A stretch of 64,000 nt of DNA, from NCBI RefSeq assembly GCF_002285415.1, contig NZ_NSBU01000007.1, positions 436,501-500,500 on the forward strand, given 5' to 3'. The position numbers and the translations under genes are program-made. Below the pieces are notes generated by a model. That model did not search any database and was not told the DNA's origin. It was given only the letters and a program-made list of their open reading frames with translations. This DNA is from Actibacterium pelagium (GTDB lineage Bacteria; Pseudomonadota; Alphaproteobacteria; Rhodobacterales; Rhodobacteraceae). Positions 21,741-41,138 of this stretch are shown here, in pieces (within the stretch, counting starts at the first letter, position 1; each line of letters opens with the position of its first letter).

Positions 21741-21767
21741 ACGTCTTCTTCTCCCAACGCCGTATTT

Positions 21768-21785
21768 TTGTCAACAATCAACATT
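21768..21785. promoter_or_regulatory. TGTCAAC-type operator candidate, site 1
   Basis: TTGTCAACAATCAACATT lies between the divergent GntR/matB and CaiB genes. The TGTCAA half-site is shared with three other promoter regions in this block (30533, 40079, 41120), though the second half here is imperfect. Confidence 0.5.
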
Positions 21786-21851
21786 TATATTGCTAAGCAC
21801 TGATCTTTGGCATAGTAATGCCAACGACACAATTTCCAAGGGGGGAGCATA

Positions 21852-23090
21852 ATGGCGCAGTCCCAAAAGGAGGCCGTTGGCGAAATGCAGGATACGGAAA
21901 CCAATATGTCGCTTCCTCTCCCGAGTACGGCCCTGAAGGGCATTCGCGTTCTGGACCTGACGCGGGTCCGCTCTGGTCCCACATGTGTACGCCAGTTCGC
22001 TGATTGGGGCGCCGATGTCATAAAGATCGAGACGCCCGTAGATAGCGCGCAGCTTGGCGGTCCGCGCTCCGGACCCGATTTCCAGAACCTGCATCGGAAC
22101 AAGCGGTCGCTGACGCTTAACTTGAAAACCGAGGAAGGGATCGCGGCTTTCAAGAGACTCGCCAAGACGGCCGACGTCATCGTCGAGAATTTCCGTCCCG
22201 GCGTAAAAAAGCGCCTCGGCATCGACTATGAGACGCTTTCTGTGGACAACCCGGGTTTGGTCTATGCCTCCATATCCGGTTTTGGACAGGACGGTCCGCT
22301 TGCCGCGCGGCCAGGCTTTGACCAGATCGCGCAGGGCATGGGCGGTCTGATGTCGATAACCGGCAAACCCGGTGAGGGCCCGATGCGCGTCGGCATTCCG
22401 ATCGCCGATCTTTGCGCAGGGCTTTTCGCCGCACAGGGCATCCTGATCGCACTTCTCGAACGCGAAAAATCGGGCAAGGGGCAGTGGATTCAAACCTCGC
22501 TCCTTCAGGCGCAGGTCTTCATGCTGGACTTTCAGGCGGCGCGTTTCCTCATGGATGGAGACGTGCCAAAGCAGGCGGGCAACAATCACCCGACGTCGAT
22601 TCCGACCGGTGTCTTCAAGACTAAGGATGGGCACATGAACCTTGCCGTCGCGGGACAGGAGATATGGAAGCGGTTTGCGACCGCGCTGGATCGCAAGGAT
22701 TGGATCGAGGACGACCGATTTGCGACGCCGCCAGCACGATCCGAGAACCGGGATGTTCTTGGGGAAGAGATCGAGGAGATAACCCTCACCCGGACGACGG
22801 CGGAGTGGATCGATATCATGAATGAGGCGGGCGTTCCCGCCGGTGAAATCAACGACATCGGACAGGTCTTTGACAATCCGCAGGTGCACCATCTTGGCCT
22901 TGCCCAGCCTGTCCATAGCCACGAACGTGGTGAAACTCGGCTTGTGGGCCAGCCAATCACCATGAGCCGGACGCCCAGCAGAATCGCGGCGCCGCCGCCG
23001 CTGGCGGGTCAGCATTCCGAAGCCATCCTCAAAGAGATAGGCTATTCGGAAACCGAAATCGCTGCCATGAAAGAAAATGGCGCAATCTAA
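21852..23090 (+). CDS. Family III CoA-transferase (CaiB/BaiF)
   Basis: The ATG at 21852, with GGGGGAG just upstream, gives 412 residues. Family III motifs are IRVLDLTRV.SGPTCVRQFADWGADVIKIE at the start, NKRSLTLNLK, ENFRPGVKKRLGIDYE and ARPGFDQIAQGMGG. The Asp of GFDQ (about residue 157) is the catalytic carboxylate that carries CoA. It moves CoA between organic acids such as succinyl-CoA and a dicarboxylate; the acceptor cannot be read from sequence. It is the first gene of a four-gene operon with the crotonase, thioesterase and aminotransferase-fold genes. Confidence 0.9.
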   Translation: MAQSQKEAVGEMQDTETNMSLPLPSTALKGIRVLDLTRVRSGPTCVRQFADWGADVIKIETPVDSAQLGGPRSGPDFQNLHRNKRSLTLNLKTEEGIAAFKRLAKTADVIVENFRPGVKKRLGIDYETLSVDNPGLVYASISGFGQDGPLAARPGFDQIAQGMGGLMSITGKPGEGPMRVGIPIADLCAGLFAAQGILIALLEREKSGKGQWIQTSLLQAQVFMLDFQAARFLMDGDVPKQAGNNHPTSIPTGVFKTKDGHMNLAVAGQEIWKRFATALDRKDWIEDDRFATPPARSENRDVLGEEIEEITLTRTTAEWIDIMNEAGVPAGEINDIGQVFDNPQVHHLGLAQPVHSHERGETRLVGQPITMSRTPSRIAAPPPLAGQHSEAILKEIGYSETEIAAMKENGAI

Positions 23091-23107
23091 TCTAACGGAC
23101 GTAATAA

Positions 23108-23893
23108 ATGACTGAAAAAATTATCACCGAGCAGAATGGCGAGATCGCGCGGATCATCTTCAACCAGCCGGAAAAGAGAAACGCCGTCTCGCTGGAGATG
23201 TGGGAGGCTGTCGAAGAAGCTCTGGCTCGTTTCGCCGCAGACCCAGAGGTGCGGATCCTGATCCTGTCAGGTGCCGGTGGAAAAGCTTTCGTCTCGGGGG
23301 CCGATGTATCGAAGTTTGAGAGCGAGCGCGCCAGCGCAGAGGCCGTCGCGCATTACAATGCCACCACAAAACGCGTCTACGACAGCCTCGAAGCGTTTCC
23401 CAAACCCACGATCGCGCAGATCGACGGTTTTTGCATTGGGGGCGGCGTCGCCCTGTCGCTCAGCTGCGATCTTCGGATCTGCGGAGAAGGGTCGCAGTTC
23501 GCGGTGCCAGCGGCCAAACTTGGCCTTGGATACGGCTATCCCGGCATCAAGCGACTTGTCGACGTTGTCGGACCGTCCTTTGCCAAGGAAATCTTTTTCA
23601 CCGCTCGGCGCTTCAACGCTGAAGAGGCAAGAACCATGGGTCTTGTAAATCGTGTGGTCGAAGACGGAAAAGTGGCCGAGGCCGCCGAAGAGACCGCGAA
23701 GATGATTGCGGCAAACGCGCCGATGACCGTCACTTCGGTCAAGTACATCGTGAGTCAGGTGGTTCTGCCAGAAAGTGAGCGAGACCTTGAAGAATGCGAG
23801 CGCCGCGTGCAGGCCTGCTTCAATAGTCAGGACTATATCGAAGGCCGCCGTGCCTTTCTTGAAAAGCGCAAACCTCAGTTCGTTGGGTCCTGA
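23108..23893 (+). CDS. Crotonase-family enzyme, possibly a decarboxylase rather than hydratase
   Basis: 261 residues with the crotonase oxyanion-hole motifs SGADVSKF and FCIGGGVALSLSCDLRI. The first catalytic Glu of enoyl-CoA hydratases (in PEILLG) is Ala here (VPAAKLGLGYGYPG, residue 135), while Glu161 (AKEIFFTA) is kept. The spacing LG..Y.(x)2GI, with Tyr142, resembles the methylmalonyl-CoA decarboxylase YgfG, whose catalytic Tyr is at that place; the YgfG active-site His (GHD) is Ala here. With matB nearby, decarboxylation of a malonyl-type thioester is an attractive guess. An ordinary hydratase or isomerase role is not excluded. Confidence 0.85.
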   Translation: MTEKIITEQNGEIARIIFNQPEKRNAVSLEMWEAVEEALARFAADPEVRILILSGAGGKAFVSGADVSKFESERASAEAVAHYNATTKRVYDSLEAFPKPTIAQIDGFCIGGGVALSLSCDLRICGEGSQFAVPAAKLGLGYGYPGIKRLVDVVGPSFAKEIFFTARRFNAEEARTMGLVNRVVEDGKVAEAAEETAKMIAANAPMTVTSVKYIVSQVVLPESERDLEECERRVQACFNSQDYIEGRRAFLEKRKPQFVGS

Positions 23894-24360
23894 TGGAGGA
23901 TGCCGCACCAAAGCGCATAGACGAGGCGAAAGCCCGGGCGCATTTTAATGAAGCGATCGAAGGTCACGAGCAGGCCTTCGAAACCTTCTTCTTTTCGCGG
24001 TTTCTGGGGCTCAGCTTCGAGTATCTTCCTGAAGGCGTTCCGGACTCTGAGAAAGAGGTATGCAGGCTGACGTTTCCGGTCACCGACATGCTTCGAAATC
24101 CGCAGGGGTCGCTTCATGGGGGCGCAATGGCCTCTGCTATGGACATTTCCATGGGGCATCTGGTTAAAAAGATCGCAGGGCCTGGCGCGACCATAGAACT
24201 GAAGGTGCAGTTCATGCGCCCGGTTATGGAGGGAACTGTGACCTGTGAGGGCCGATTCACCAAGAAGGGGCGGACGCTGTCTTTCATGGAAAGTCGGCTC
24301 AAGGGGCCGGATGGCAAACTCGCAGCTCTCGCAACCGCCACGTGGAAGATGCCAGGCTGA
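23893..24360 (+). CDS. PaaI-type hotdog thioesterase
   Basis: 155 residues; starts in the TGATG overlap with the crotonase stop, so translation is coupled. The hotdog core NPQGSLHGGAMASAMDISMG has the HGG motif and the Asp used by PaaI-family thioesterases; IELKVQFMRPVMEGTVTCEGRFTKKGRTLSFMESRL is the usual second half. The N-terminal 50 residues are longer than the minimal family. It would release a CoA ester made by the neighbouring genes, or act as a salvage hydrolase. Confidence 0.85.
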   Translation: MEDAAPKRIDEAKARAHFNEAIEGHEQAFETFFFSRFLGLSFEYLPEGVPDSEKEVCRLTFPVTDMLRNPQGSLHGGAMASAMDISMGHLVKKIAGPGATIELKVQFMRPVMEGTVTCEGRFTKKGRTLSFMESRLKGPDGKLAALATATWKMPG

Positions 24361-25628
24361 TGACGATGCTAATACGACCTATTGACGCCGAACTTCTCTC
24401 GGAAGTTCGTAGCCGTTTCGCTCATGTCGATACCTGCCCGTTCGAAGGCGAGCGGATATTCTTCGAGAATGCGGGCGGCGCGCTGACCCTGAAATCTGTT
24501 GTTGAGACCTCTGCGAAATTTGCAGCCATTCCCGACAACCAGGGCCGAGACAACCCTGCCGCTCATGCACTGATGGCCCTGATCGACAAGGCCAAGGCCG
24601 ATATGGCGGTCTTCTTCAATACTTCCGGTGGTCAATTCTTTGTCGGCGAAAGCGGCACCGAGCTTCTTTTCCGGCTGATCCGTACCGCCTGCTTGGCGAC
24701 GGAGGAGGGCCGCGTTCTTGGCAGTACGCTCGAGCATCCCGCGACCCGCAGCGCCGCGCGGCACTGGTCTGAAGTTGCGGGCAAGGCACATGTCCTTGTG
24801 TCTCATGACAACGCGACGGGAACAGTTGACCCGGATGGATATCGGCCCGAGATCACTCCCGATACCCGCGTGGCCACAATCCTGCACACATCGCCCGTGA
24901 CCGGCATGGGTGTTGACGTGGGCGCAGTTGCAGCCGAAATACGCCGCGTCGCCCCAGACTGCATCATCATTGTGGACGGGATTCAGCACGCCGCGCATGG
25001 CCGGTTAGACATCGAGAGCTATGACATCGACGGCTATGTCGTGTCGCCTTACAAGGTCTTCTCGCGCCATGGCTATGGTGTGGCTTGGGTTTCGGACCGC
25101 CTAAACGGGCTTAAGCACGAGCATCTTATCGACGCGCCCGGCGAGCCTTGGGAGTTCGGAACTCGGGATACCGGTGCCTATGCCACCTTTTCCGACGTGG
25201 TAGATTATTTCGACTGGCTAGGGGGCGAAGTCTCGTCTGCCGAGGACCGGCGCGAAAGGATCGTTGCCGCGGGCGAGGCGATCCATGCCCATGAGATGGC
25301 GCTGACCGACGCCATGATCAAAGGCACAGGCAATCAGAAGGGTCTGGCAGAAATACCCGGGATAACGATCATTGGCGGGGCCGAAAACCCGAAACGCGAG
25401 GGTCTTGTGTCCTTGGTGGTCGAGGGAATGGACGCTCCCGACGTCGTAACAGCGCTGCGGAAGCGGGGCATCCGAACCCACACGCGCAAGGCCGATCACT
25501 ACTCTGGCAACATCCTTGATCCGCTTGGCATTACTTCTGCCGTTCGCGTTTCCTTGTGTCACTACAACAGCCAAGCCGAGGTCGCGCAGTTCCTTCAGGC
25601 GATCCGCGAGATTGCTGAAGCCAACTAG
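24360..25628 (+). CDS. Class V aminotransferase-fold PLP enzyme (cysteine desulfurase-like)
   Basis: The ATG at 24360 overlaps the previous stop (ATGA); 422 residues. Fold type I PLP enzyme: IFFENAGGALTL, SGTELLFRLI, LEHPATRSAARHW, VDGIQHAAHGRLDIESYDIDGYVVSPYKVFSRHGYG. The PLP Lys is Lys232 in SPYKVFSRHG, with Asp206 and His210 in the DGIQH motif. The family includes cysteine desulfurases, isopenicillin-N epimerase-like enzymes and C-N or C-S lyases. The operon context suggests an amino-acid or amine substrate entering the pathway; the reaction is not known. Its stop overlaps that of the convergent gene. Confidence 0.85.
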   Translation: MTMLIRPIDAELLSEVRSRFAHVDTCPFEGERIFFENAGGALTLKSVVETSAKFAAIPDNQGRDNPAAHALMALIDKAKADMAVFFNTSGGQFFVGESGTELLFRLIRTACLATEEGRVLGSTLEHPATRSAARHWSEVAGKAHVLVSHDNATGTVDPDGYRPEITPDTRVATILHTSPVTGMGVDVGAVAAEIRRVAPDCIIIVDGIQHAAHGRLDIESYDIDGYVVSPYKVFSRHGYGVAWVSDRLNGLKHEHLIDAPGEPWEFGTRDTGAYATFSDVVDYFDWLGGEVSSAEDRRERIVAAGEAIHAHEMALTDAMIKGTGNQKGLAEIPGITIIGGAENPKREGLVSLVVEGMDAPDVVTALRKRGIRTHTRKADHYSGNILDPLGITSAVRVSLCHYNSQAEVAQFLQAIREIAEAN

Positions 25629-26647
25629 ACCCGCGCGAGCGCCTTGAGTCTTCCCAGCAGGTCAGGCGCGATCGGTACGCCTTTGGCACGTGCCTCGGCG
25701 AGCGACGCCAGCGCGCGATCGCCAGGAAGGCGCGGCCCATGCGCAGCATCTGGTGCGGCGCTCTCTTTCAGAAGTGAGCGTGCCACGCCAAGACGATCCG
25801 AGGCGGATTGGGGCGATAAGAGGCGCCCGGCGTCGATCACCAGGAACAGGTGCCCGGTATTGCTTACGGCTTCGGGGTTTTGATTGGCGTTCGGGATCTC
25901 CGATAGAAACGACGACCCCGAAAGGACGGCTGTAAAGAGGTCGAGCGCTAGAGAGAGGTTCGCGCCCTTGCTACCACCGATGGCCTGCATGAACCCCTTC
26001 ATCGCCTCGGCCGCATCGGTCGTTGGCTGGCCCTGCGCATCCGTCGCCCAACTGTCCGGGATCGGGATGCCTGCAGCCGCTGCCTGTCGCACCTTCGATC
26101 GGGCGGCGACTGACAAAGCTACATCGAAGATGAGATGCCGACCGCCGGTATCGGGGATCGTGATCCCGAGCGGCTGATTGCCAAGTATCGGAGAGCGTCC
26201 TCCGGGGGCAGCGATCATGGGTGCGGTGTTGGTGGTGCAGATCGCGGCGAAGCCAGCCTCGGCCGCTTGGAGCAGCAGCGGCGCCAACGCGCCGAGATGT
26301 GATGAGGCACGGCAAAAGGCCGCGCCTATGCCGACCTCCCGCGCCGCCTCCATCGCAGAGGTCATGGCGCGAAATGCGACGGCCGCACCAAGGCCGTTCT
26401 GACCGTCCACCTGCCTTAGGGCCGCTGCAGGGGCGGTGATTATGGGCGTTGCATCGGGATTGACGCCGCCTTTTTCCATTCGGTCGACATAGTACCCGGT
26501 CCGTGACACGCCGTGGGTGCTGATCCCCATCATCTCGGCGGTAACGAGCATCCGCGCGGCGTCATCGGCCATATCGGCGCGCATCGCCGCCGCGCGGAAA
26601 GCCGACCCAACGAGCCCGACCAGCTCGCATTCAGCGATCCTCTCCAC
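25625..26647 (-). CDS. Ldh2-family malate/L-lactate/ureidoglycolate dehydrogenase-like oxidoreductase
   Basis: 340 residues from a GTG at 26647; a longer frame would run into the end of tctA, and the conserved part starts at ERIAECELVGLV. Family features are MGISTHGVSRTGYYVDRM (catalytic His), GAAFCRASSHLGALAP, TNTAPMIAAPGGRSPILGNQPLGI and GSKGANLSLALDLFTAVLSG. Members reduce 2-oxo acids or imines with NAD(P)H. The ribosome site is weak and the start uncertain. It is the last gene of the minus-strand tctCBA operon, implying that the imported acid or its product is its substrate. Confidence 0.85.
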   Translation of the reverse strand: MERIAECELVGLVGSAFRAAAMRADMADDAARMLVTAEMMGISTHGVSRTGYYVDRMEKGGVNPDATPIITAPAAALRQVDGQNGLGAAVAFRAMTSAMEAAREVGIGAAFCRASSHLGALAPLLLQAAEAGFAAICTTNTAPMIAAPGGRSPILGNQPLGITIPDTGGRHLIFDVALSVAARSKVRQAAAAGIPIPDSWATDAQGQPTTDAAEAMKGFMQAIGGSKGANLSLALDLFTAVLSGSSFLSEIPNANQNPEAVSNTGHLFLVIDAGRLLSPQSASDRLGVARSLLKESAAPDAAHGPRLPGDRALASLAEARAKGVPIAPDLLGRLKALARV

Positions 26648-26651
26648 TACC

Positions 26652-28178
26652 TTAACTGCCCGCTTTTTCGGATTCCCCGGCACTGGTGTTTCCGAACCGG
26701 TTGAGCAGTGGAAGCAGTACCACAAGGGCAATCGTCACGCAGATGATCGACAATGATGGCGTGCGCTCGATGAAGATGCCAAAGGACCCGCGAGAGATGG
26801 TCATCGTTTGTCGAAGGGCTTCCTCGGCGAGGGGGCCGAGCACTAGCGCCAGGACCAGAGCGGCGGGCGAGAAGCCGTAGAGCCGCATGAAGAAACCGAC
26901 CATACCGGCGGCAAACATCAGGTAGGTCTCGATAAAGCTCGCGTGAACGCTAAACGTGCCAAGCGCGCAGACCACCACGACCGAGGGCCCGAGCACCCGG
27001 TAGGGCACCTTGATCATTTGGACGAAGAGTGGGATCGCAAAGATCGAGATGACCAGAAGCACCATGTTCCCAAGATACATCGATGCGATGAGGCCCCAAG
27101 CCAACTCGGGGTTCTGCTCCATGAAGAGAGGACCAGGACGGAGGCCCCAGAGAAGGAATGCTGCGAGAAGCACCGCCGTCGAAGCCGACCCCGGTATACC
27201 GAGCGTCAGAAGCGGGATCATTGCGCCGGACGATGCCGCGTTATTCGCGGTTTCCGGGGCGACAAGGCCCGCCATCTCGCCATTGCCGAAGTTATCGCCA
27301 TTTTTTGAGATCGACCGCTCGGTGGAGTAGGCCATGAGCGAGGCAATTGTCGCTCCTGCGCCCGGGATCACACCGACAACAAAGCCAAGGATAGAACCGC
27401 GCACCATGGTGAAGCGTGTGGAAACCCAGTCCTCAATCGACGGCCAGAACCGCTCTTCCTTGTCGTACTGGACGATGCCGCCCGTGCCGGTTTTGTGAAG
27501 CCCGGTGTAGAAGGCATAGAACAGTTCGCCAAGGCCGAAGAGACCGATCGCAATCGGGATGAAATAGATGCCCCCGATTAGCTCGGCAGAGCCGAAAGTG
27601 TAGCGGCCCTGTCCGGTTTCAAGGTCGACGCCTACTGTGCCAAGGGCGAAGCCGATCAGCGCCGAGATCACCCCAAATTTCCAGTTGGTTCCGATCATGA
27701 CGAGAAGCGTCAGCATCCCCATCACAGCCAGCAGAAAATACTCGGGTGGCCCAAAACTCCGGCTAACCTGAGCGAAGAGTGGTGCGAGGATGGTGATCAG
27801 GATCACGCCTACGGTGCCACCCACGAAAGAGGCCGCTGCCTGCATAACAAGAGCGGGCCCTGCGCGGCCTTTCTTGGCAAGTGGAAAGCCATCGAAGGTC
27901 GACGCGACTGTAGCGCTTTCCCCCGGGGTGTTGAGAAGGATCGAGGTGATCGTTCCGCCGTACATCGCGCCGTAATAAATGGCCGCGAGCATCATGATGG
28001 CGCCGATTGGGTCCATCCCGAATGTCACTGGTAGAAGGATCGCAAGACCCGCCGAGGGTCCAAAGCCCGGTATAACACCGACGATCATGCCGACGATGGC
28101 ACCGATTAGAAGGTAGAAGAGGTTGATCGGGGAGATGGCGATCGAAAGCCCCATCATCAAATCCGAAAAGATGTCCAT
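26652..28178 (-). CDS. tctA: Tripartite tricarboxylate transporter large permease, copy 1
   Basis: 508 residues, about 11-12 membrane helices, with the TctA signature near the start (GVIPGFGPSAGLAILLPVTFGMDP) and its second copy (GVIPGAGATIASLMAYSTERSISK), plus NTPGESATVASTFDGFPLAKKGRAG. It forms the transport channel with TctB and the periplasmic TctC. Gene order tctC-tctB-tctA, then Ldh2, all minus strand. Family substrates are citrate and other di- or tricarboxylates. Confidence 0.93.
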   Translation of the reverse strand: MDIFSDLMMGLSIAISPINLFYLLIGAIVGMIVGVIPGFGPSAGLAILLPVTFGMDPIGAIMMLAAIYYGAMYGGTITSILLNTPGESATVASTFDGFPLAKKGRAGPALVMQAAASFVGGTVGVILITILAPLFAQVSRSFGPPEYFLLAVMGMLTLLVMIGTNWKFGVISALIGFALGTVGVDLETGQGRYTFGSAELIGGIYFIPIAIGLFGLGELFYAFYTGLHKTGTGGIVQYDKEERFWPSIEDWVSTRFTMVRGSILGFVVGVIPGAGATIASLMAYSTERSISKNGDNFGNGEMAGLVAPETANNAASSGAMIPLLTLGIPGSASTAVLLAAFLLWGLRPGPLFMEQNPELAWGLIASMYLGNMVLLVISIFAIPLFVQMIKVPYRVLGPSVVVVCALGTFSVHASFIETYLMFAAGMVGFFMRLYGFSPAALVLALVLGPLAEEALRQTMTISRGSFGIFIERTPSLSIICVTIALVVLLPLLNRFGNTSAGESEKAGS

Positions 28179-28209
28179 TGCGGCTGCTCCGGCTAGTGTA
28201 TTGTGAGGC

Positions 28210-28662
28210 TCAGATTGGTAGGTCGTAGAGCGCGGGCGGCATGTTGGCGTTCAGCACCCTGTCGAACAGAAGATAGACGCCGCCTGGGATCAAGATGGCC
28301 AAGGCGAAGTTCTTGAGCGGTTGTGTGCGGTTTAGAACCATCAGGGTCACGCCAAGGAAGATCACGGTAGCGACGAAGCCGCCGAACATCCGGAGTAGCA
28401 CAGCGTAACCAATAGCGAGGGCCATGAGCATGACCACGTCCTGCCATGCCTCCGGGTTCGCCTTTTCCTGCTCATCCGCGCCTTTTCTGAGCTCGTCGAT
28501 CAGCGCCCAGAGGATGATGAAGATAGCAGAGATGCCGATCACACGCGGAAAGAAACCTGGGCCGGGGCGTCCGGTCCGCGTCAGAAAGTTAAGGTCGGCG
28601 AATGCGACGTAGGTATAGTAGATCACCCCGGCGAGGAGAACGACAAGGAAGACGCGGCGCAT
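28210..28662 (-). CDS. tctB: Tripartite tricarboxylate transporter small permease, copy 1
   Basis: The ATG at 28662 starts MRRVFLVVLLAGVIYYTY; 150 residues with four membrane helices and the TctB pattern TRTGRPGPGFFPRVIG. An upstream in-frame Met (28719) would add a charged, unlikely N-terminus. It sits between tctC and tctA and is the small membrane subunit. Confidence 0.9.
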   Translation of the reverse strand: MRRVFLVVLLAGVIYYTYVAFADLNFLTRTGRPGPGFFPRVIGISAIFIILWALIDELRKGADEQEKANPEAWQDVVMLMALAIGYAVLLRMFGGFVATVIFLGVTLMVLNRTQPLKNFALAILIPGGVYLLFDRVLNANMPPALYDLPI

Positions 28663-28737
28663 GATTTGAAATCCTGTGATGGAGAAGGCCGGCCGCGGAC
28701 CATTCCGCGGCCGGCCCATAGTTTTGGCAGATGCCGC

Positions 28738-29730
28738 TTATTCGATCGCGCCGACTTCACGCAGAACGGTCTCGAAGCCGTTCTTTGTGTTGCCAAGGAA
28801 GGTGCGGAACTCGTCGCCGTAGAGTACGGTCGGTGTCAGCGTATTGCTTGAGATGTACTCGTCCCATTCCGGCGTCTCGACGACTTTTTTCATGGTCTCG
28901 ATCCAGAACGTCTGGGCTTCTTCCGGCGCATTTGGCGGCAGGATCAGTCCGCGGGGCATCGACACGCCGATGTCGTAACCGATATCACCCATGGTCGGTA
29001 CGCCTTCGAGCGCGGCCGGGGTGGATGTTCCCGAGAACACCATCGGGCGCAGGTCTCCGGAGTCGATCAGACCAAGGATTTCACCTGGGTTGCCGACCAT
29101 GGCGTCTAGCGCGTTCGAGAGAAGCGCTGTGGTCTGCTCGGACATCGAGTTGAACGAAACGTAGTCGAACTCGAAGCCCGCGCGCTTGGCAAAGAGAGTC
29201 GGCACGATGAAGTCGACATTGACCGAACCTGTACCGCCGATCGTGATCGGGTTTTCTTTCGCGTTCGCGATGAACTGGTCGATATTTTGGATATCGCTTT
29301 CGCCGTTCACCACGAGGACGAGGTCGTCGGTTGCCAGAAGCGCCACGGGCGTGAAATCTTCGGGCTGCCAAGGCGTATCTGCCTGAAGCGGTGTGGTCAC
29401 GAAGCTGCCCGACGTGGTCGAGATGCCATAGCCGTTGCCGTCCTGTGCATAGAGATAGCCCCAACCGACAGCCCCAGAGCCGCCCGCGCGGTTCTCGGCC
29501 GAAATTTCGCCAGGATAGAGGTCGTACTTGTTCAGGATCTCGATGATGCTGCGGGCCATGATGTCGTTGCCGCCACCCGGACCGAAGGCGATGGTCCAGT
29601 CGAGCGTTTCATCGGCCGAGGGATAGTCCTGCGCAATCGCAGGCGTTGCCACAGCGAGGGGGGCGGCGACAACGGCCGCCGCTACGGCGCCGAGAAGTCC
29701 GCGTCCGAATTTGGTTTCAGTCTTGTCCAT
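28738..29730 (-). CDS. tctC: Tripartite tricarboxylate transporter solute-binding protein, copy 1
   Basis: The ATG at 29730 follows GGAGGATACTC; 330 residues. A signal peptide ends near AIAQ (residue 34), then comes the Bug/TctC fold: LDWTIAFGPGGGNDIMAR (ligand carboxylate loop), NRAGGSGAVGWGYLYAQ, TIGGTGSVNVDFIVP. It delivers the substrate to TctAB. The first gene of its operon; a divergent GntR gene is not directly adjacent, but the next gene upstream on the same strand is GntR. Confidence 0.9.
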   Translation of the reverse strand: MDKTETKFGRGLLGAVAAAVVAAPLAVATPAIAQDYPSADETLDWTIAFGPGGGNDIMARSIIEILNKYDLYPGEISAENRAGGSGAVGWGYLYAQDGNGYGISTTSGSFVTTPLQADTPWQPEDFTPVALLATDDLVLVVNGESDIQNIDQFIANAKENPITIGGTGSVNVDFIVPTLFAKRAGFEFDYVSFNSMSEQTTALLSNALDAMVGNPGEILGLIDSGDLRPMVFSGTSTPAALEGVPTMGDIGYDIGVSMPRGLILPPNAPEEAQTFWIETMKKVVETPEWDEYISSNTLTPTVLYGDEFRTFLGNTKNGFETVLREVGAIE

Positions 29731-29804
29731 GAGTATCCTCCCTAGGTTTTGCATGGAATTTCGGCTCGGCGCCTCCTGCGCCGGGCAGATAAATGTTGAT
29801 CGCG

Positions 29805-30503: not shown

Positions 30504-30532
30504 GGCGCCAAGCAAATAGATATAATGTAGAA

Positions 30533-30552
30533 TGTCAACAATATTCTGTTGA
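30533..30552. promoter_or_regulatory. TGTCAAC-type operator candidate, site 2
   Basis: TGTCAACAATATTCTGTTGA contains the inverted repeat TCAACA-ATATTC-TGTTGA, 30 bases upstream of the GntR start and 84 bases upstream of the divergent SDR gene. Confidence 0.55.
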
Positions 30553-31373: not shown

Positions 31374-31441
31374 CCCGCGTCGGTCTCAGGCGACCAGCCG
31401 GTGGGGCTGAAAATCTTCCTCGCATTCTAGCCACTATCGCC

Positions 31442-32452: not shown

Positions 32453-32456
32453 AGTC

Positions 32457-33539: not shown

Positions 33540-34063
33540 GGACCGATCATGCTCTTTCCGACTTCTCGAACACGACCGAAACCCCGCAACTGTTCAACAT
33601 TGGCCAGTATCGGAAACAGTTATGTTTGCCCTGCGTCTTCTGAAGAACGGGGCGAGGCTGACCGTTACTTTCCAGTACGACAAACACGAATTCGGCATCG
33701 GTCACCTTCTCGGATTTCTTGCCGCATCTCGGACACGCCGAGGCATCGACGTGCGCCCGACTTTGCGCAGCCGTGGAAAGCGCGGGCTGCCGCACTTTGT
33801 CGGATACCCAACGATTGGCAATCCGTGACGAGGAGTGCCTCCGGGTCGCGAAAACGCCGACTCTACACCGGTACACCTGTCCTCGGGTTGTTGCGTAGGA
33901 GTACAGGGCAACTACTAGGTTCCAGCTTCGATCGCGTTCGAGAAAGGCATATTAAGCTCTGCTTCGTCTACGATTACACAGACGAGCGCTTGGCCTTAAA
34001 ACACTGCTCGAAACACTCGCGAATGTTGGTTTTTTCGGGCGGTCTAGATAGGATTACAACGCC
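33540..34063 (+). other. 524-base gap without a convincing gene
   Basis: Several open frames cross this stretch on both strands but none has a good ribosome site or a recognisable product. One minus-strand frame encodes a CPRCGKK zinc-ribbon-like stretch (near 33700-33780), which may be a relic. The ATG of the next gene is preceded by AGGA at ten bases. Confidence 0.4.
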
Positions 34064-35455
34064 ATGAATGACCCTGACAGCATAGACGCGACGGTTGCCC
34101 GATACATTTCGAAAGCGGGGGGAATGGAACTGCCGCCCGAGGTCGAAATGCGCGCGCGATGCCATCTTCTCGATACCATAGCGGCGATTCTTTCGGGCCG
34201 GTTTTTGCCCGCGGGTCAGTTCGGTTACCGCTTTGTGGAAGGTGCGAAACAGATTGGACCGGCGGCATTGCTCGGATCGACGTCCCGAACAAGCGTCGAG
34301 TACGCGGCATTCGCCAATGCGATGGCTGCCCATGCGGATGAGACCGACGACAGCCATATTTGGGGGCGTTTTCATCCCGGATGCGGTATCGTGCCGGCGG
34401 CGCTTGCCATGGCCGAGCGTCAGGGTTCTTCTGGCGCGGCGCTTCTTCGCGCCATCGCTCTTGGATACGATATCGGTGCGCGGGCAACCATGGCGTTGGG
34501 ATATTCCAACCCGAAGACAACGGTGTTCTCGACCCATTCCTTCGGGTCGCTCTTCGGCGCTGCTGCGGCTTCTGGCACTCTGGCCCAGCTCAGCGCCGCC
34601 CAATGCGAGGCGATGCTGTCATTTACAGTTCAGCAGACCTCAGGGTTGTCCTATTGGAACCGCGATCCGGACCATGTTCAAAAGTCGTTTGACTTCGGCG
34701 CCAAAAGCGCACGGAACGGCGTGTTTGCGGCGCTGCTTGCCGAAGCCGGCATGACGGCGCCGGACCATCCCTTGACCGGCGAGAACAGTTTTCTTGCGGC
34801 CTTCGCGGAAGCCCCGCGTCCAGAGGCCCTGTACGAAGAGCTCGGAGAGCGTTTCGAAATAGCACGCTCGTCGATCAAGAAATGGTCCGTCGGCTCGCCA
34901 CTGCAATCCGTGCTCGACGCGGTCGAGGCAATCTTCGGCGGCAAGACACAACGAGGTGAGGACATCGACGCTATCACGGTGCACCTTCCTTCGAACCGGA
35001 TTCATATCGTTGACAATCGTCACATGCCGGCGGTTTGTGCACAGCACCTCGTGGCACTTTCGACGTTACGCGGCCGGGTCGGCTTTGCCGCTTCGCATGA
35101 CGCGGCTCTGATGTCGGACCCCGAAATTCTTGCCCTTCGTCAAAAGATCCGACTGGTGGCGGATGACGCGCTGACCCATGCGCGGCCCGAACGCCAATCG
35201 ATCGTCGAGATACGCATGGCGGACGGGAAAACGCTCCGGCACCACGCCAGGGTCGTGCGTGGTACGCCAGACGACCCGATGTCTCCGGATGAGGTTTGCG
35301 AAAAGGCCGGCGATATCCTTGGCGGCATACTTCCTGATGGCGGGACGCGCTTGATCAGCCTCTGCTTGGAAGAAAACTTCCAACCGGGCGATCTTGTTGA
35401 TGCGTGTCTTATCGGACCGCATCCGAATGACACAATTGCGCTAGGTGGAACATGA
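34064..35455 (+). CDS. MmgE/PrpD family protein 1
   Basis: 463 residues; the family includes 2-methylcitrate dehydratase, cis-aconitate decarboxylase and iminodisuccinate epimerase. Seen here: the helical N-terminal domain, ANAMAAHADETDDSHIWGRFHPGCGIVPAALAMAE (conserved His, Asp pair and HPG), STHSFGSLFGAAAASG, and SIKKWSVGSPLQSVLDA with the usual Lys before the substrate loop. It forms a tandem pair with the next gene, overlapping by ATGA. The substrate is unknown; a carboxylated chiral acid would fit. Confidence 0.88.
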   Translation: MNDPDSIDATVARYISKAGGMELPPEVEMRARCHLLDTIAAILSGRFLPAGQFGYRFVEGAKQIGPAALLGSTSRTSVEYAAFANAMAAHADETDDSHIWGRFHPGCGIVPAALAMAERQGSSGAALLRAIALGYDIGARATMALGYSNPKTTVFSTHSFGSLFGAAAASGTLAQLSAAQCEAMLSFTVQQTSGLSYWNRDPDHVQKSFDFGAKSARNGVFAALLAEAGMTAPDHPLTGENSFLAAFAEAPRPEALYEELGERFEIARSSIKKWSVGSPLQSVLDAVEAIFGGKTQRGEDIDAITVHLPSNRIHIVDNRHMPAVCAQHLVALSTLRGRVGFAASHDAALMSDPEILALRQKIRLVADDALTHARPERQSIVEIRMADGKTLRHHARVVRGTPDDPMSPDEVCEKAGDILGGILPDGGTRLISLCLEENFQPGDLVDACLIGPHPNDTIALGGT

Positions 35456-36858
35456 CCGGAATCGAACCTCCTGAGGTGACGCGCCAAATCGCCTCCTTTA
35501 TCGCGGCGACGAGATTCGAGGATTTGCCGGACGATGCCATACAGGTTGCGGTCCGCTGCGTTTTGGACGGCATGGCTGTAATGATCGCGGGTACGCAGGA
35601 AGCCTGCGCAACGATTGCCAGGGACTACGTTAGGTCCGTCGGGGGCAAAGAAGAAGTCACGGTTTTCGGAGCAGGGGGCAGGCGGTCGCCCATTCATCTT
35701 GCCGCTTTCGCCAACGGAATTGCAGGGCACGCGCTTGACTATGACGATACAGCGCTGTCGCTCGAAAAGGACCGTTCTGTCCTGATCCATCCGACGATGC
35801 CCGCGCTCTGCGCGGCATTGGCTGTCTCTGAATTGACCGGAGCGAGCGGGCCCGAGTTTCTTACGGCCTTCGTTCTGGGGTTCGAGACCGAGGTGAAGGT
35901 CGCGGAAGCGATCCACCCGGATCATTTCGCCGGCGGTCGGGGTTTTCATTCGAGTGGAACAATCGGTGTTTTCGGCTCGGCAGCGGCGGCGGCAAAGTTG
36001 ATGAAGCTAACCGAGGAGCAGACGTGCCATGCGCTCGCTATCGCTGCGACAATGTCGGCTGGTCTGGGTGTTAATCACGGCACGATGTCGAAACCCCTCA
36101 ACATGGGGCGGTCGGCGGAAACCGGTGTGACAGCGGCACGGCTCGCAAGCCTTGGATTCGATGGCCCAGGCAATGCGCTTGAAGGCGGACGTGGTTTCTT
36201 CGAGGCATTCGGTGGCGGCTTTGCCGCAGAGAAAATCGTGGATCGACTTGGCGCGCCATTTGCGATCCTCGACCCAGGCTCGTCGATAAAACCTTACCCG
36301 TCCGGCGTCGTCGGACATCCCGGGATGGATGCGATGAAAACGCTGGTTACCCTGCACGACATAGCCCCCGGGGACGTGGCAAAAGTCGTGGTCAGAACAG
36401 GGCTGAACGTGATTGCCCCCGGCCCGTTGCGCGTCGCGCATGCACGCACGGCGCTCGAAGGTAAGTTCTGCGTTCCATTCCAGATGGCAGCGATGATCCT
36501 GCGCCGGAAGGCGGGGCTAGCAGAGTTTTCGGATGATTTTGTTGCGTCCGAAGCCTGTCAGGCAATGCAGAAACGGGTGACGGCCGTTATCGCGCCCGAT
36601 ATCGCGGCTCTCGGCAAGGACAAGATCGTATTTGAGATCGAGCTACACACTCATAGCGGCGCTGTTCATGTTCAGAGATCTGAGGAGCACTACCGAGGTG
36701 GACCGCGCAATCCTCTTACTTGGGAGGAGCTGGTCGAAAAGTTTAGAGACTGCAGCGAAGGGGTTATCGAAAAGGGGGCGCAGGATACCTTTATTGCGAA
36801 TTGCCGCAACATCGCGGATCTGCCGACGATTTTGCCACTTGTGAAGTCCCTAATCTGA
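35452..36858 (+). CDS. MmgE/PrpD family protein 2
   Basis: 468 residues; starts inside the previous stop. Motifs: ANGIAGHALDYDDTAL, LIHPTMPALCAALAVSE, FHSSGTIGVFGSAAAAAKLM and SSIKPYPSGVVGHPGMDA. All conserved His and Asp positions of the family are present. Last gene of the SDR/AbrB/enolase/MmgE/MmgE strand; a strong terminator overlaps its stop. Pairs of MmgE/PrpD genes may form hetero-oligomers or act on successive intermediates (inference). Confidence 0.88.
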   Translation: MTGIEPPEVTRQIASFIAATRFEDLPDDAIQVAVRCVLDGMAVMIAGTQEACATIARDYVRSVGGKEEVTVFGAGGRRSPIHLAAFANGIAGHALDYDDTALSLEKDRSVLIHPTMPALCAALAVSELTGASGPEFLTAFVLGFETEVKVAEAIHPDHFAGGRGFHSSGTIGVFGSAAAAAKLMKLTEEQTCHALAIAATMSAGLGVNHGTMSKPLNMGRSAETGVTAARLASLGFDGPGNALEGGRGFFEAFGGGFAAEKIVDRLGAPFAILDPGSSIKPYPSGVVGHPGMDAMKTLVTLHDIAPGDVAKVVVRTGLNVIAPGPLRVAHARTALEGKFCVPFQMAAMILRRKAGLAEFSDDFVASEACQAMQKRVTAVIAPDIAALGKDKIVFEIELHTHSGAVHVQRSEEHYRGGPRNPLTWEELVEKFRDCSEGVIEKGAQDTFIANCRNIADLPTILPLVKSLI

Positions 36859-36896: not shown

Positions 36897-36908
36897 ATCG
36901 GTTAAGAG

Positions 36909-38423
36909 TTATTCTGCGCTGTCCGCGTTCGCCGCGTTCTTCTTTTTCCTCGCGTCGAAATAGTCCCGGAGGCCCGATCCCACCACGAAGAGAAGCGCCG
37001 TAATCAGCAGCCCGAGCGAGATGCCATCATTGATGAAAACGGAATGATCGCCACCAGTCAGCAAGAGAGAGCGGCGGTAGTTCGATTCGATCAGATAACC
37101 AAGCACGAGGCCCAGAACCAATGGCAGAAAAGGGAAGCCGAGCAGGCGCATGACATAGCCAATCGCCCCAGCGAAGAGGACGAGGTAGAGGTCAAAGAGC
37201 GTGTTGTCGATCGAGTAGATTCCCGAGAAGATTAGCGCGAAAATCGCGGCCATAAGATATGGTTTAGGGCGGTTCACAAGCCAGATTGCCGGCGTCAGGA
37301 TCAGCATGCCGATAAAGAAAAGCGACAGGTTCGCGACAAGCAGCCCGCCATAGAGCCCATAGATGAAGTCCGGGTTCTCTTCGAAAAGAAGCGGGCCCGG
37401 TTGAAGTCCATGGATAAGAAGGCCGCCGAGAAGGATCGCGGTCGAGTTCGATCCTGGGATGCCGAATGAGAGCATTGGAACAAGGGCCGTTCCTGCCACG
37501 GTGTTGTTGGCGCTTTCCGGGGCCGCAATGGCTTCGGGCGACCCTTTGCCGAACTCGTCCGGATTGGAAGACCAACGCCGCGCCTCGTTATAGGCCATGA
37601 AGGCCGCGATCGAGCCGCCGGCACCCGGCATGACACCTTCGAAAAGACCCACGCCGGAACCGATAGCCTGAGGTTTGCGCAGCCGCTTGAGTAGCGCCCA
37701 TGACGGAAGCTTTATCCGCATCTGCCGTGTCTCGCTCTTGGGGCGCTTGTATTCGGGTTTTCCGGCCTGCACGAGCAGTTCCGAAACCGCGAAGACGCCG
37801 ACCATCACGAGAATGAAGGGTATGCCGCCCAGCAACTCGGGGGCACCGTATGTGAAGCGGCTCACCCCGGAAATCGGGTCGGTGCCGACGGTGGCGATCA
37901 TCAGACCGATGACACCAGCCATAAGTCCCTTGATCAGCGACCCGCTCGACAGGGATGCAATCACGCTGAGCCCTAGCACGCCGAGTGCGAAATAGGCGGG
38001 TGGCGTGAAATACAGGGCGACGCTCGCCAGTGGCTTGGTCAGAAGGACAAGGCAGAAAAGTCCTATCATTCCGCCAATCACGCCAGAAACGAGCGATATC
38101 CCGAGGGCCTCGCCACCGCGCCCCTGCTTTTGCATCTCGTAGCCGTCGATCGAGGTGGCAGCAGCGGCATTGGTACCGGGGGTGCGGATCAGGATCGCCG
38201 GGATCGAACCGCCATATTCAGCGCCCACATAGGTCGCCGCGAGAAGGACGATCGCGGGAATTGGGTCCATCGTATAGGTAAAGGGCAGCAAGAGCGCCAT
38301 CGCGATCGACGGCGAAATCCCGGGCAGGGCTCCACCAAGGATGCCCCAAACGACACCACCCATCGCGGCAAAGGCCGCCGGTGTCGTCGTTAGTGCTGAC
38401 CATGCGTAGCCGAGTGGCTCCAT
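36909..38423 (-). CDS. tctA: Tripartite tricarboxylate transporter large permease, copy 2
   Basis: 504 residues with the TctA motifs GALPGISPSIAMALLLPFTYTMDP, RTPGTNAAAATSIDGYEMQKQGRGGEALG, GVMPGAGGSIAAFMAYNEARRWS and FGIPGSNSTAILLGGLLIHGLQPGP. It is clearly diverged from copy 1, so the two systems probably carry different substrates rather than being a recent duplication. Last gene of a minus-strand tctC-tctB-tctA operon. Confidence 0.93.
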   Translation of the reverse strand: MEPLGYAWSALTTTPAAFAAMGGVVWGILGGALPGISPSIAMALLLPFTYTMDPIPAIVLLAATYVGAEYGGSIPAILIRTPGTNAAAATSIDGYEMQKQGRGGEALGISLVSGVIGGMIGLFCLVLLTKPLASVALYFTPPAYFALGVLGLSVIASLSSGSLIKGLMAGVIGLMIATVGTDPISGVSRFTYGAPELLGGIPFILVMVGVFAVSELLVQAGKPEYKRPKSETRQMRIKLPSWALLKRLRKPQAIGSGVGLFEGVMPGAGGSIAAFMAYNEARRWSSNPDEFGKGSPEAIAAPESANNTVAGTALVPMLSFGIPGSNSTAILLGGLLIHGLQPGPLLFEENPDFIYGLYGGLLVANLSLFFIGMLILTPAIWLVNRPKPYLMAAIFALIFSGIYSIDNTLFDLYLVLFAGAIGYVMRLLGFPFLPLVLGLVLGYLIESNYRRSLLLTGGDHSVFINDGISLGLLITALLFVVGSGLRDYFDARKKKNAANADSAE

Positions 38424-38470
38424 TATCTCACTCCTGTATTAGAAAATGCTTGCCTGCGGTCATCGGCATA

Positions 38471-38980
38471 TCAGCCGGTACCGGGAAGCGCGGGAAGTAT
38501 CGTGCCGCCTGGCAGCGGGATGCCAAGAAACAAAACGAACAGAAGGTAAAAGCCGAAGGGCCCAATCAAGGCTATCAGTATGGTTCTCTGGCTAAGAGGA
38601 GCCCCGATGTAGAGCGAAACGAAGAAAATCAGAAGGCCGATAGAAATGACATATCCCAGCGTATTCACGACCAGCAGATAGCCAACTCCAAGGGCCAGCA
38701 TGCCGATGGCGCGAAGATGCGGCCTAATGCGTTCGGACAACGGCTGGGGATCTTCTTTGGCCACTGTCTCGGAGCTGGTCATGAGCGATATGGAAATCGC
38801 CCGAATGATCAAAAGAATGGCAAGGGCACCGAGCGCCCAAGCCAGTGATTTTGGTAGCCCCGACGCACCCACGGGATCGTCGAGCGGGCTGACGCGTATT
38901 TTAGAGGCTTCGAGCCAGTAGAAAATGGATACGCCCAACATCACAAGGCCAATCCAAATGTCCCGGGTGAAGTACGTCAT
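38471..38980 (-). CDS. tctB: Tripartite tricarboxylate transporter small permease, copy 2
   Basis: 169 residues with four membrane helices. The N-terminal helix FTRDIWIGLVMLGVSIFYWLEA and DPVGASGLPKSLAWALGALAILL are TctB-like, and a charged cytoplasmic loop carries ETVAKEDPQPLSERIRPH. It lies between tctC and tctA. Confidence 0.87.
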   Translation of the reverse strand: MTYFTRDIWIGLVMLGVSIFYWLEASKIRVSPLDDPVGASGLPKSLAWALGALAILLIIRAISISLMTSSETVAKEDPQPLSERIRPHLRAIGMLALGVGYLLVVNTLGYVISIGLLIFFVSLYIGAPLSQRTILIALIGPFGFYLLFVLFLGIPLPGGTILPALPGTG

Positions 38981-39012
38981 CTTTGTATTCCTTTTGCCCG
39001 AAGCCGTTTCGC

Positions 39013-39984
39013 TCAGCCGTCCACGATACCGTAGGTAACGAAGAATTCACGCTGATCTTCGGCGAACTGCTCAAGGAAGGCGTTGTATTCCTCATGCTGC
39101 ATGAAGGCCGGGACGAGGGACTGAGCCGAGTACCACTCTTGGAACTCTTCGTCCTGAAGAACGGCGGTCAGAGCGGCTTCCCACTTGTTGAAAATGTCGT
39201 CGGGAAGACCGGCCGGGCCTGCGATGCCGCGGAACTTGTTCACGACAAGGTCGATACCCTGCTCCATCGCGGTTGGCACATCGGGGAAGCCATCCAAACG
39301 ATCCTGTGTGTAAGTTGTAATCAGGCGCACCTCACCCGCTCTGAGTTGGGCGTCGAGTTCCTGAATTTCACCAATGCCAAGAGCCACGGTGCCGTTAAGA
39401 ACCGAGATCAACAGCTCGCCACCGCCGTCATGCGTGACGACTGGCGAGGTCACGCCGGTCAGGGCTTTGAACTTTTCCATCACCTGGCGATCGAGCGATC
39501 CAGGCGTCGTCACCCCGAAGACCACGTCAAAGGGACTAGCCTTTGCCGCCTCGACGACTTCCGTCAGATTATTGAACGGGCTGTCTGCGGCGACGTAGAC
39601 GACCTGCGGGTCGAGGAACACGTTGGAGACGCCGGTCAGGTCCTTGTAAGTGTATTCGGGCTTCGAAAGCAGCGACGTGTTGATGAAGGTCGGCGTCGTT
39701 CCATAGAAGATCGAACCGTCCGATGGTGAGTTCGCCAGCTTGGCCATCGCCTTGGCGCCAGAGCCGCCGCGAACGTTTTCGACGACGAAGTCGGCGCCGA
39801 GATACTTGCCGAGATATTTCGTCATCTCACGCAGGAAGACGTCCGTACCGCCACCCGAGCGTGAGTGCGTGACGAGCGTCACCGTATCATGTGGATATTC
39901 CTGAGCTGCCGCCGGTAGAGCCATAGTTCCGGCCGCTGCGGCCGTGGCTAATGCGGCAATTAGATTGCGAGCGCTATTGAGCAT
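39013..39984 (-). CDS. tctC: Tripartite tricarboxylate transporter solute-binding protein, copy 2
   Basis: 323 residues; the signal peptide ends at LPAAAQ (about residue 28). Bug fold: VTLVTHSRSGGGTDVFLREM (ligand loop), VENVRGGSGAKAMAKLA, then VTTPGSLDRQVMEKFKALTGV. The ligand loop differs from copy 1 (THSRSGGGTD against AFGPGGGNDI), in keeping with another substrate. A tandem TGTCAAC motif lies about 95 bases upstream. Confidence 0.9.
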   Translation of the reverse strand: MLNSARNLIAALATAAAAGTMALPAAAQEYPHDTVTLVTHSRSGGGTDVFLREMTKYLGKYLGADFVVENVRGGSGAKAMAKLANSPSDGSIFYGTTPTFINTSLLSKPEYTYKDLTGVSNVFLDPQVVYVAADSPFNNLTEVVEAAKASPFDVVFGVTTPGSLDRQVMEKFKALTGVTSPVVTHDGGGELLISVLNGTVALGIGEIQELDAQLRAGEVRLITTYTQDRLDGFPDVPTAMEQGIDLVVNKFRGIAGPAGLPDDIFNKWEAALTAVLQDEEFQEWYSAQSLVPAFMQHEEYNAFLEQFAEDQREFFVTYGIVDG

Positions 39985-40078: not shown

Positions 40079-40092
40079 TGTCAACTGTCAAC
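40079..40092. promoter_or_regulatory. TGTCAAC-type operator candidate, site 3
   Basis: Two TGTCAAC heptamers in direct tandem (40079-40085, 40086-40092), upstream of tctC copy 2. The rest of 39985-40300 shows only a spaced inverted repeat CCGTTCC/GGAACGG (40199-40235), possibly an end signal for the SDR gene. Confidence 0.5.
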
Positions 40093-40300
40093 AATTTTGG
40101 AGAGTAGAAAAAGTATCGTAAGATATTGGTAATATTCAAAAAAAGTGATTTATAGCCTCTTGTCAGAGCATAAAAAATCAAAGAATCTCGCCCTTGATCC
40201 GTTCCGTTGGCAAAGCTGAACCACGGGGGGAACGGGCCGATGGCCGCTTGTACGGTGTGGGTTTGGGCGCCGTGCGCTCGCTGAGCCATCTTGTCAGCAA

Positions 40301-41062
40301 TCACGGCATGTATAATCCGCCCGAGACATGCACCGTTTGTCCGGTCATGAAGCCAGCGTGTGGTAGGCACATCGTGACCACCATTCCCGCTGCCTCGCCA
40401 ATCTCGCCCTCGCGGCCACGAAGAATTTCGGTCCCCATGTTCGGCGAGGCTCCCGATGAGGCCGAGCGTTTACCGCCGATCTTTCCGGGCACGACGCAGT
40501 TCGCCGTGATGTTCCGATCTGCGAACTCGCGAGCAATCGCCTTGGTGAGGCCGACAAGGCCGGCTTTCGCTGCGCAGACATGTGCACGGTTCACGGCACC
40601 GATATGCGCGGTCACGCCACCGATATTGATTACTGTGCCGCCGCCTGTTTCGATCATCAGTGGCAGGGCGGCACGGGACATAAGAAACGCTCCGTCGAGA
40701 ATGACCGAGTTTATCTCGCGCCATTCGTCCAACGACATCTCAAGTAGGGGGACCTGGCGGCGGATCGCGGCATTGTTCACGAGAATATCGAGGCGGCCAT
40801 ATTCCGAACGGGCCGCTTGCACCATCGACAGCGCGTCGTCCTCTTTGGTGACATCGCCCATGGCCACGATTGCGCGTCGCCCGAGCGCGCGGATCTCGTC
40901 GGCGACCGCGTCGATTTCGTCCTTAGCGCTGCGGGCGGTGATCACCATATCCGCACCGTGGCGCGCAAGGCCCAATGCAGTTTCACGGCCGATGCGGCGC
41001 GAGGCACCGGTTACTATCGCGACCTGTCCATCGAGTCGGTCGAGAGGAGCGGATTGGGGCAT
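40301..41062 (-). CDS. SDR-family protein lacking catalytic Ser and Tyr, copy 2
   Basis: 253 residues from the ATG at 41062; a TTG at 41074 would add four. Nucleotide site VTGASRRIGRETA and the LVNNAAIRRQ motif are intact. The catalytic Tyr is Val in HVCAAK (YxxxK position) and the Ser position reads NIGGVTAH. The same losses occur in the SDR at 30636, so this is a subfamily trait rather than decay. It lies alone on the minus strand, divergent from the second MmgE/PrpD pair and sharing the palindrome at 41120. Confidence 0.85.
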   Translation of the reverse strand: MPQSAPLDRLDGQVAIVTGASRRIGRETALGLARHGADMVITARSAKDEIDAVADEIRALGRRAIVAMGDVTKEDDALSMVQAARSEYGRLDILVNNAAIRRQVPLLEMSLDEWREINSVILDGAFLMSRAALPLMIETGGGTVINIGGVTAHIGAVNRAHVCAAKAGLVGLTKAIAREFADRNITANCVVPGKIGGKRSASSGASPNMGTEILRGREGEIGEAAGMVVTMCLPHAGFMTGQTVHVSGGLYMP

Positions 41063-41119
41063 TGGCGTGTCCAATATCTACTTCGGTCAGTGCCTATGGA
41101 TGTCACTCAAATACAGTAA

Positions 41120-41138
41120 AATGTCAATTGTTGACATT
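41120..41138. promoter_or_regulatory. TGTCAA palindrome, operator candidate, site 4
   Basis: AATGTCAA-TTG-TTGACATT is a perfect 8-bp inverted repeat between the divergent SDR and MmgE/PrpD 3 genes. It is the best copy of the motif shared by four promoters in this block. Confidence 0.65.

Follow-up and report, generated by a model that had tools for sequence, protein, structure and literature searches.

What controls a 20-kb block of acid uptake and breakdown genes in the alphaproteobacterium Actibacterium pelagium? The block lies in a 64,000-nucleotide (nt) stretch of contig NZ_NSBU01000007.1 (positions 436,501 to 500,500; hereafter the window, to which all coordinates refer) and encodes TctABC transporters together with MmgE/PrpD and CoA-transferase enzymes, which by themselves do not settle the substrate. 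It also encodes two GntR-type regulators, GntR1 and GntR2. An original prediction held that a motif shared by four promoters ties these operons into one GntR regulon, and all four of the sequences it singled out were located where it had placed them, in divergent or upstream regions: TTGTCAACAATCAACATT at 21768, TGTCAACAATATTCTGTTGA at 30533, a tandem TGTCAAC at 40079 and a palindrome at 41120.

In this study, we examine these four sites (S1 to S4), their conservation, and the regulators that might act on them. Judged from sequence, the sites are a real, conserved set of predicted operators of a known kind, once the motif has been corrected, with S3 as the weakest member. We consider it highly probable that all four are operators of the regulator clade to which GntR1 and GntR2 belong, that GntR1 would act at S1 and GntR2 at S2, that S3 and S4 would be served from a distance, and that the mode of control would be repression. 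The sites, the regulators and one overlapping promoter are these:

21767..21785, + strand: site S1, which separates GntR1 from the CoA-transferase operon; its core is TTTGTCAACAAT (21767-21778), and it contains the 7-bp direct repeat CAACAAT/CAACATT
30531..30552, + strand: site S2, core AATGTCAACAAT (30531-30542) plus the inverted box TGTTGA (30547-30552); between GntR2 and SDR1
40079..40095, + strand: site S3, TGTCAAC in tandem at 40079 and 40086, core ACTGTCAACAAT (40084-40095); about 100 nt upstream of TctC2
41120..41138, no strand assigned: site S4, perfect 19-bp palindrome AATGTCAATTGTTGACATT, with core AATGTCAACAAT on the - strand (41127-41138); between SDR2 and PrpD3
21042..21740, - strand: GntR1, FCD-type GntR regulator, recognition helix VSRGTVREA
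29805..30503, - strand: GntR2, FCD-type GntR regulator, recognition helix VSRAPVREA
41131..41159, + strand: sigma-70-like promoter TTGACA-17-GATGAT, overlapping S4 and reading towards PrpD3 (10/12 matches, a consensus match only)

Definition of the predicted operator motif

The palindrome TGTCAAnnnTTGACA, first proposed as the regulon motif, did not withstand counting. With up to two mismatches it occurs 67 times in the genome (3,487,967 bases in 7 contigs) against 63 times for the reversed control, and with up to three mismatches 16 times in the window against 18.4 expected, with an exact fit only at the 41120 site, whose description as a perfect palindrome is correct. The bare word TGTCAAC is also at background (6 in the window, 6.4 expected). 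The expectation that the motif should stand above background genome-wide is borne out for a corrected word instead: TGTCAACAAT occurs exactly 11 times in the genome and its reversed control not at all, and 4 of the 11 are S1 to S4. The binomial probability of this concentration is 3e-7, for a word picked after the sites had been seen. The 12-mer ATTGTCAACAAT, with up to one mismatch, has 18 genome sites against 1 for its control; five lie in the block, one of them in coding sequence.

The conserved unit is ATTGTCAACAAT, which has the GT-N2-AC form of a predicted operator of the FadR subfamily (FCD) of GntR regulators; in relatives it reads ATTGTCAACA[A/T]T or nearly so. Two operator spacings are described for this subfamily in the available text of PMC4494728, GT-N2-AC being the shorter. 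As is typical of such operators, a GT-N2/3-AC palindrome stands at the regulators' own promoters and at those of their predicted targets, and the motif is found at the start of all seven predicted operons of the block. What stands of the single-regulon proposal is the GntR operator type and its place at seven operon starts, and what falls is the TGTCAAnnnTTGACA palindrome. A literature search with TTGTCAACAAT returned no match that, judged by title, concerned a GntR regulator.

A 12-bp matrix was built from 19 sites in GntR1- and GntR2-type promoters of other genomes, with the window's own sites excluded. The four sites take its first four ranks in the window: 21767 (22.2 bits), 41127 (20.2), 30531 (20.2) and 40084 (16.2). 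Rank 5 (35006, 16.0 bits) is coding, formed by the IVDN codons of PrpD1, and rank 6 scores 13.7. The matrix is biased towards ATTGTCAACAAT because its sites are the best ATTGTCAACAAT matches inside orthologous promoters. A second site in genome G089 is included among the 19 and lies outside the GntR1 flank set used below; in the GntR2 set, the sites of loci L125 and L194 were taken by exact words.

The regulators and the conservation of their promoters

Both GntR1 and GntR2 carry an N-terminal GntR winged helix (PF00392) and a C-terminal FCD domain (PF07729) over cut-off, which confirms that FCD-type GntR genes sit at two of the four sites. They are 40% identical over 203 aligned positions. 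GntR2 is read here from the ATG at 30503; a mechanically called open reading frame (ORF) from 30578 would overrun S2. The genome contains 12 FCD genes, and only these two have TGTCAACAAT, with up to one mismatch, near their start; at another FCD locus, L011, a one-mismatch site lies several hundred bases away. Identity with the phosphonate regulator PhnR (TIGR03338) was rejected, as the two proteins score 175.6 and 176.9 bits against a cut-off of 271.5, and no match over cut-off was found in any of the 15 genomes searched. All 10 aligned regulators share Asn142, His146, His190 and His212, and such an Asn/His set would fit a metal-carboxylate pocket.

Members of the regulator clade occur in alpha-, beta- and gammaproteobacteria and in a few actinobacteria, according to a scan with peptide patterns. 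Among named records, those closest to GntR1, at 60-68% identity, come from Puniceibacterium, Dinoroseobacter, Maritalea, Roseicyclus, Thalassococcus, Yoonia, Salinarimonas and Pseudorhodobacter. From 124 loci, 3 identical proteins and 8 rows for FCD genes of the window's own genome were left out, and a quick tree of 113 FCD regulators was computed, with the Shimodaira-Hasegawa-like approximate likelihood ratio test (SH-aLRT) as its only support measure. GntR1 falls in a group of 12 (SH-aLRT 100), nine named-locus members of which stand beside genes for CoA transferase, enoyl-CoA hydratase and malonyl-CoA synthase. GntR2 falls in a group of 7 (SH-aLRT 98), with four named-locus members beside SDR1 and TctABC1. 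The analysis thus supplies a testable operator and gene list for a clade whose best curated match, a phosphonate regulator, stays under cut-off, and it links two carboxylate-uptake clusters to what is probably one kind of switch.

The operator core is conserved at the promoters of these regulators. Of 80 loci of relatives, 58 have it with up to two mismatches, and 37 with up to one, in the 350 nt before the GntR match; control windows from the same loci contain it (up to two mismatches) in 18 of 714. All 11 GntR1-type promoters examined in other genomes have the S1 core (up to two mismatches) with its 7-bp repeat, a second [C/T]A[A/G]CA following 7 bp after the core in 11 of 11 and TTGT recurring 22 bp on in 9 of 11. 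One GntR1-type promoter (L052 of G089, positions 8227 and 8249) has two cores, TGTCAACATT, 22 bp or about two helix turns apart, and eight others have a partial TTGT at that distance. For S2, the core is found in the seven GntR2-type promoters of other genomes, with up to two mismatches in six and with three in one, and a TTGA box stands at S2's distance in five of the seven (in L125 it lies 4 bp further on; G048 is without it). In the FadR family, additional half-sites have been described at 7-12 nt from the centre (PMC4494728, available text).

The flanks separate the two promoter types. Over the 14 nt after the core, S1 and S2 agree with their own sets at means of 11.3 and 10.4 positions, and with the other set at 4.1 and 4.6. 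S4 scores 19.7 with the GntR1 matrix, 19.5 with the GntR2 matrix, and best, 26.5, with a set drawn from SDR2 promoters. Aligned on its best core, S3 is poor with all three sets; aligned on its first repeat, it does better with two of them. In another family, locus L057 of G125 has three exact copies of TGTCAACAAT on one strand (1882, 2925 and 7991), over about 6 kb around a clade GntR gene, which is perhaps another multi-site regulon.

Candidate regulators of S3 and S4 and the competing explanations

S3 and S4 have no regulator gene beside them, and the SDR2, PrpD3 and TctABC2 genes next to them also occur in relatives. A site was called strong at 16 bits or more with the other-genome matrix, and a genome was taken to bear the clade at 160 bits or more in the TIGR03338 search, a threshold chosen in the gap between 164.6 and 147.8. 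By this measure, 12 of 15 genomes, the window's own included, bear the clade, and G014, G008 and G257 (128 bits or less) do not. The SDR2 promoter is strong, at 16.0-22.5 bits, in six of the seven clade-bearing relatives scored (G074, G215, G206, G161, G324 and G273); in the seventh, G272, it scores 3.0 and TctC2 scores 16.0. G084, with a different gene order, has a strong site at TctC2 (22.5). No strong site was found at the promoters scored in the three clade-free relatives: G014, which has the same gene order, reaches 5.2 bits at the SDR2 promoter, and G008 and G257 stay below 0 at the promoters tested. The comparison of promoters in relatives proposed at the outset thus bears out conservation of S1, S2 and S4, and of S3 only weakly.

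In G161, G324, G273 and G272, a clade GntR of another subclade adjoins SDR2, and in the first three of these its gene stands at the SDR2-promoter site. The TIGR03338 search found no third clade member in the window's genome, so GntR1 or GntR2 are the candidates for S3 and S4. We therefore propose the following. GntR1 at S1 and GntR2 at S2 would each control the two operons that start there and, because the flanks of S1 and S2 differ, probably each its own gene. One or both would act on S3 and S4 from a distance, since the local GntR of some relatives is absent here. The mode would most likely be repression by covering the promoter (S4 overlaps a TTGACA hexamer); this suggestion rests on known FCD repressors, on the divergent layout and on the overlap of S4 with TTGACA-17-GATGAT. 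PrpR of Pseudomonas aeruginosa is described as repressing prp (PMC9765439, available text), and Atu1419 as an FCD repressor (PMC7797058, available text). Release could come from a carboxylic acid or a pathway intermediate tied to the TctABC, MmgE/PrpD and CoA-transferase functions.

Several observations weigh against this explanation. S3 is weakly conserved: the best score at TctC2 is at least 16.0 in two of the seven clade-bearing relatives, 9.5-12.8 in three and 6.2 in two. Only G014 is a like-for-like clade-free relative, as the genes are differently arranged and more divergent in G008 (82% complete) and in G257. G014 also has the most sites with up to one mismatch genome-wide (40), and the genome-wide 12-mer count was dropped as a test for the regulator on that account. 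ATTGTCAACAAT or a closely similar word also stands upstream of regulators from a second FCD lineage, whose recognition helix contains GRM (L224 in G014 and L205 in G257), so the word alone does not name its regulator. No site with up to two mismatches lies upstream in 22 of the 80 relatives' loci. Three of the exact TGTCAACAAT copies outside the block look intergenic (L029, L030 and L037), each two mismatches from the 12-mer. Finally, a simple consensus scan of S1 to S3 found no promoter-like pair that uses the motif, the sigma-70-like overlap being confined to S4. At L224 of G014, a second near copy lies 26 bp from the first (positions 897 and 923).

The strongest competitor is a pair of separate regulons, in which GntR1 would serve S1, with S3 or S4 added at most, and GntR2 would serve S2, the core reflecting ancestry and the flanks keeping the two apart; we rate this as falling only slightly short of an even prospect. 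The 14 nt that follow the core at S1 and at S2 agree only with promoters of the site's own type, the GntR1 orthologues compared carry an SRGT helix and the GntR2 orthologues compared SRGP, and each subclade retains its own gene neighbourhood. On the other side, the four sites have the same 12-bp core, and core-only matrices from the GntR1 set and from the GntR2 set each put all of them in the window's top four. Somewhat less probable, yet still a real contender, is a single regulon in which both paralogues act on all four sites. It would explain the identical core and the similar scores of S4 with the two matrices, and G074, with a single clade regulator, offers an apparent precedent for one regulon: 5 of its 8 genome sites (up to one mismatch), spread over 19.4 kb, lie around that regulator and these operons. 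The different conserved flanks of S1 and S2 speak against it. Because these flanks differ and the gene neighbourhoods are separate, two overlapping regulons would fit at least as well as one regulator over all four sites.

We think it improbable that S3 and S4 are now-unbound relics, operators whose regulator has been lost. The other-subclade GntR that adjoins SDR2 in four relatives is indeed absent here, and the clade-free G014 has a poor match at the same promoter. Against this, S4 is a perfect 19-bp palindrome, both sites rank in the window's top four, and two clade regulators are still in the genome. That the motif is merely the sigma-70 -35 hexamer, on either strand, seems very unlikely: TGTCAA is the reverse complement of TTGACA and S4 fits TTGACA-17-GATGAT, but no comparable pair uses the motif at S1 to S3, conservation spans 12 bp or more, and the clade-free G014 lacks the site at the SDR2 promoter. 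Chance matches can be set aside almost entirely, for although the bare words are at background and LVNNA codons of SDRs give the same word, the sites hold matrix ranks 1-4 and orthologous promoters conserve them, which speaks against chance for S1, S2 and S4; S3 alone could be a chance match.

Known systems, the recognition residue and the gene block

The closest known system to the proposed operator set is PrpR, or PmiR (PA0797), of P. aeruginosa, a FadR-subfamily GntR with a predicted 12-nt operator, ATTGTCGACAAT, and an operon that includes prpD (PMC9765439, available text). That operator differs from the window's by one central base, with CG there and CA here, where extra half-sites are also present. 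PDB entries 7XP0 and 7XP1, named only 'Probable transcriptional regulator', we take to be PmiR; 7XP0 has SRG in its recognition helix and is 30% identical to GntR1. An orthologue of PrpR/PmiR, the FCD-type repressor of the 2-methylcitrate (prp) operon, would be expected in a methylcitrate operon with prpB and prpC; neither methylisocitrate lyase (prpB) nor methylcitrate synthase (prpC) was found among the 18 distinct window proteins scanned.

Atu1419 of Agrobacterium fabrum, a VanR-type FCD-GntR, binds the GT-N2-AC palindrome ATGTATACAT and has been solved with DNA (PMC7797058, available text); the central bases are TA there and CA in the window. Corynebacterium glutamicum has a pair of GntR-type paralogues, also called GntR1 and GntR2, for gluconate and glucose genes, which are reported to be functionally redundant (PMC2230225, available text). 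They belong to another phylum with other targets, and their redundancy was tested, whereas the window's pair is known from sequence. GdhR of Neisseria, for which a site before gdhA, TGTCAACA, has been proposed (PMC5388806, available text), is GntR-type and differs in its target. The available text of the survey of FadR-subfamily regulons by Suvorova et al. 2015 (PMC4494728) names neither the window's clade nor its targets.

Thr46 of Atu1419 contacts the adenine at position 5 of ATGTATACAT (PMC7797058, available text). By a match of the S-R-x motif rather than of structures, the corresponding place holds Gly in the window's clade and Ala in GntR2, whose helix reads SRAP, and that A is replaced by C in the operator. 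This place is G or A in 99 regulators, of which 64 have a CA-centred site, none a TA-centred one, and 35 a tie or neither; for 11 with T, the counts are 0, 4 and 7. A site was called CA-centred at up to two mismatches and when better than TA. In this sample, 80 of the loci had been picked up with peptide patterns among which was SRG, the rows are related, and two are the window's own genes. Shared ancestry and this selection make the SRG/GTC link suggestive only, and the CA core of the GRM lineage weakens it further. Even so, the contrast of SRG/GTC with SRT/GTA would make a one-residue specificity test in a large regulator family. An operator hand-over is conceivable because the whole clade appears to read a common GTC half-site: the lineage may have lost the GntR on the SDR2/PrpD3/TctABC2 side and the GntR of the neighbouring cluster may have taken over its operators, with Thr reading GTA and Gly or Ala reading GTC. 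We regard this history as rather unlikely.

The remaining genes of the block are as follows:

19484..21007, - strand: malonyl-CoA synthase-like gene, downstream of GntR1 (NF005702, 803 bits, cut-off 558)
21852..25628, + strand: operon right of S1, with family III CoA transferase-like, enoyl-CoA hydratase-like, thioesterase-like and cysteine-desulfurase-like genes (first and last from NCBIfam matches below cut-offs, the two middle ones from translations)
25625..29754, - strand: operon downstream of GntR2, with TctC1, TctB1, TctA1 and a ureidoglycolate/malate dehydrogenase-like gene (Tct labels from translations and cross-matches to TctA2/TctC2, dehydrogenase from a family scan)
30636..36858, + strand: operon right of S2, with SDR1, an AbrB-type protein, a mandelate racemase-like gene, PrpD1 and PrpD2 (family matches for the first four, PrpD2 from translation)
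36909..39984, - strand: operon left of S3, with TctC2, TctB2 and TctA2 (TctC2 and TctA2 by family match, TctB2 from translation)
40301..41062, - strand: SDR2, left of S4 (family match)
41190..46472, + strand: operon right of S4, with PrpD3, PrpD4, a rhodanese-like multi-domain protein and an RraA-like protein (PrpD4 from translation, the other three by family match; TTG start at 41190 inferred)

The stretch 28738-29754 gave no NCBIfam match. The listed dehydrogenase ORF (25625-26731, - strand) overlaps the end of TctA1 (26652-28178, - strand) by 80 nt, and its true start is probably further inside. A 172-residue ORF at 33549-34067 (+ strand), which follows the mandelate racemase-like gene and precedes PrpD1, is perhaps spurious, or else a remnant. 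The rhodanese-like protein (518 residues; 44043-45599, + strand) has relatives near PrpD4 genes in G014, G074, G161 and G215.

Beyond the block there are seven exact copies of TGTCAACAAT. Four lie in plausible long ORFs (L028, L031, L032 and L038), and the intergenic-looking L037 copy (position 1501) is upstream of a LexA-like gene, the gene labels there coming from translations. Thirteen of the 18 genome sites within one mismatch of the 12-mer are outside the block, 12 in ORFs and one, ATTGTAAACAAT at L210, intergenic by a crude ORF call. The same call put S2 and S4 inside genes because mechanical ORFs with upstream starts overrun them; with starts at 30503 and 41190, both sites are intergenic. 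The codons for LVNNA in SDR genes spell TTGTCAACAA(T/C), as in L213, L088 (9685) and L094 (8793), and so give false operator matches in motif scans.

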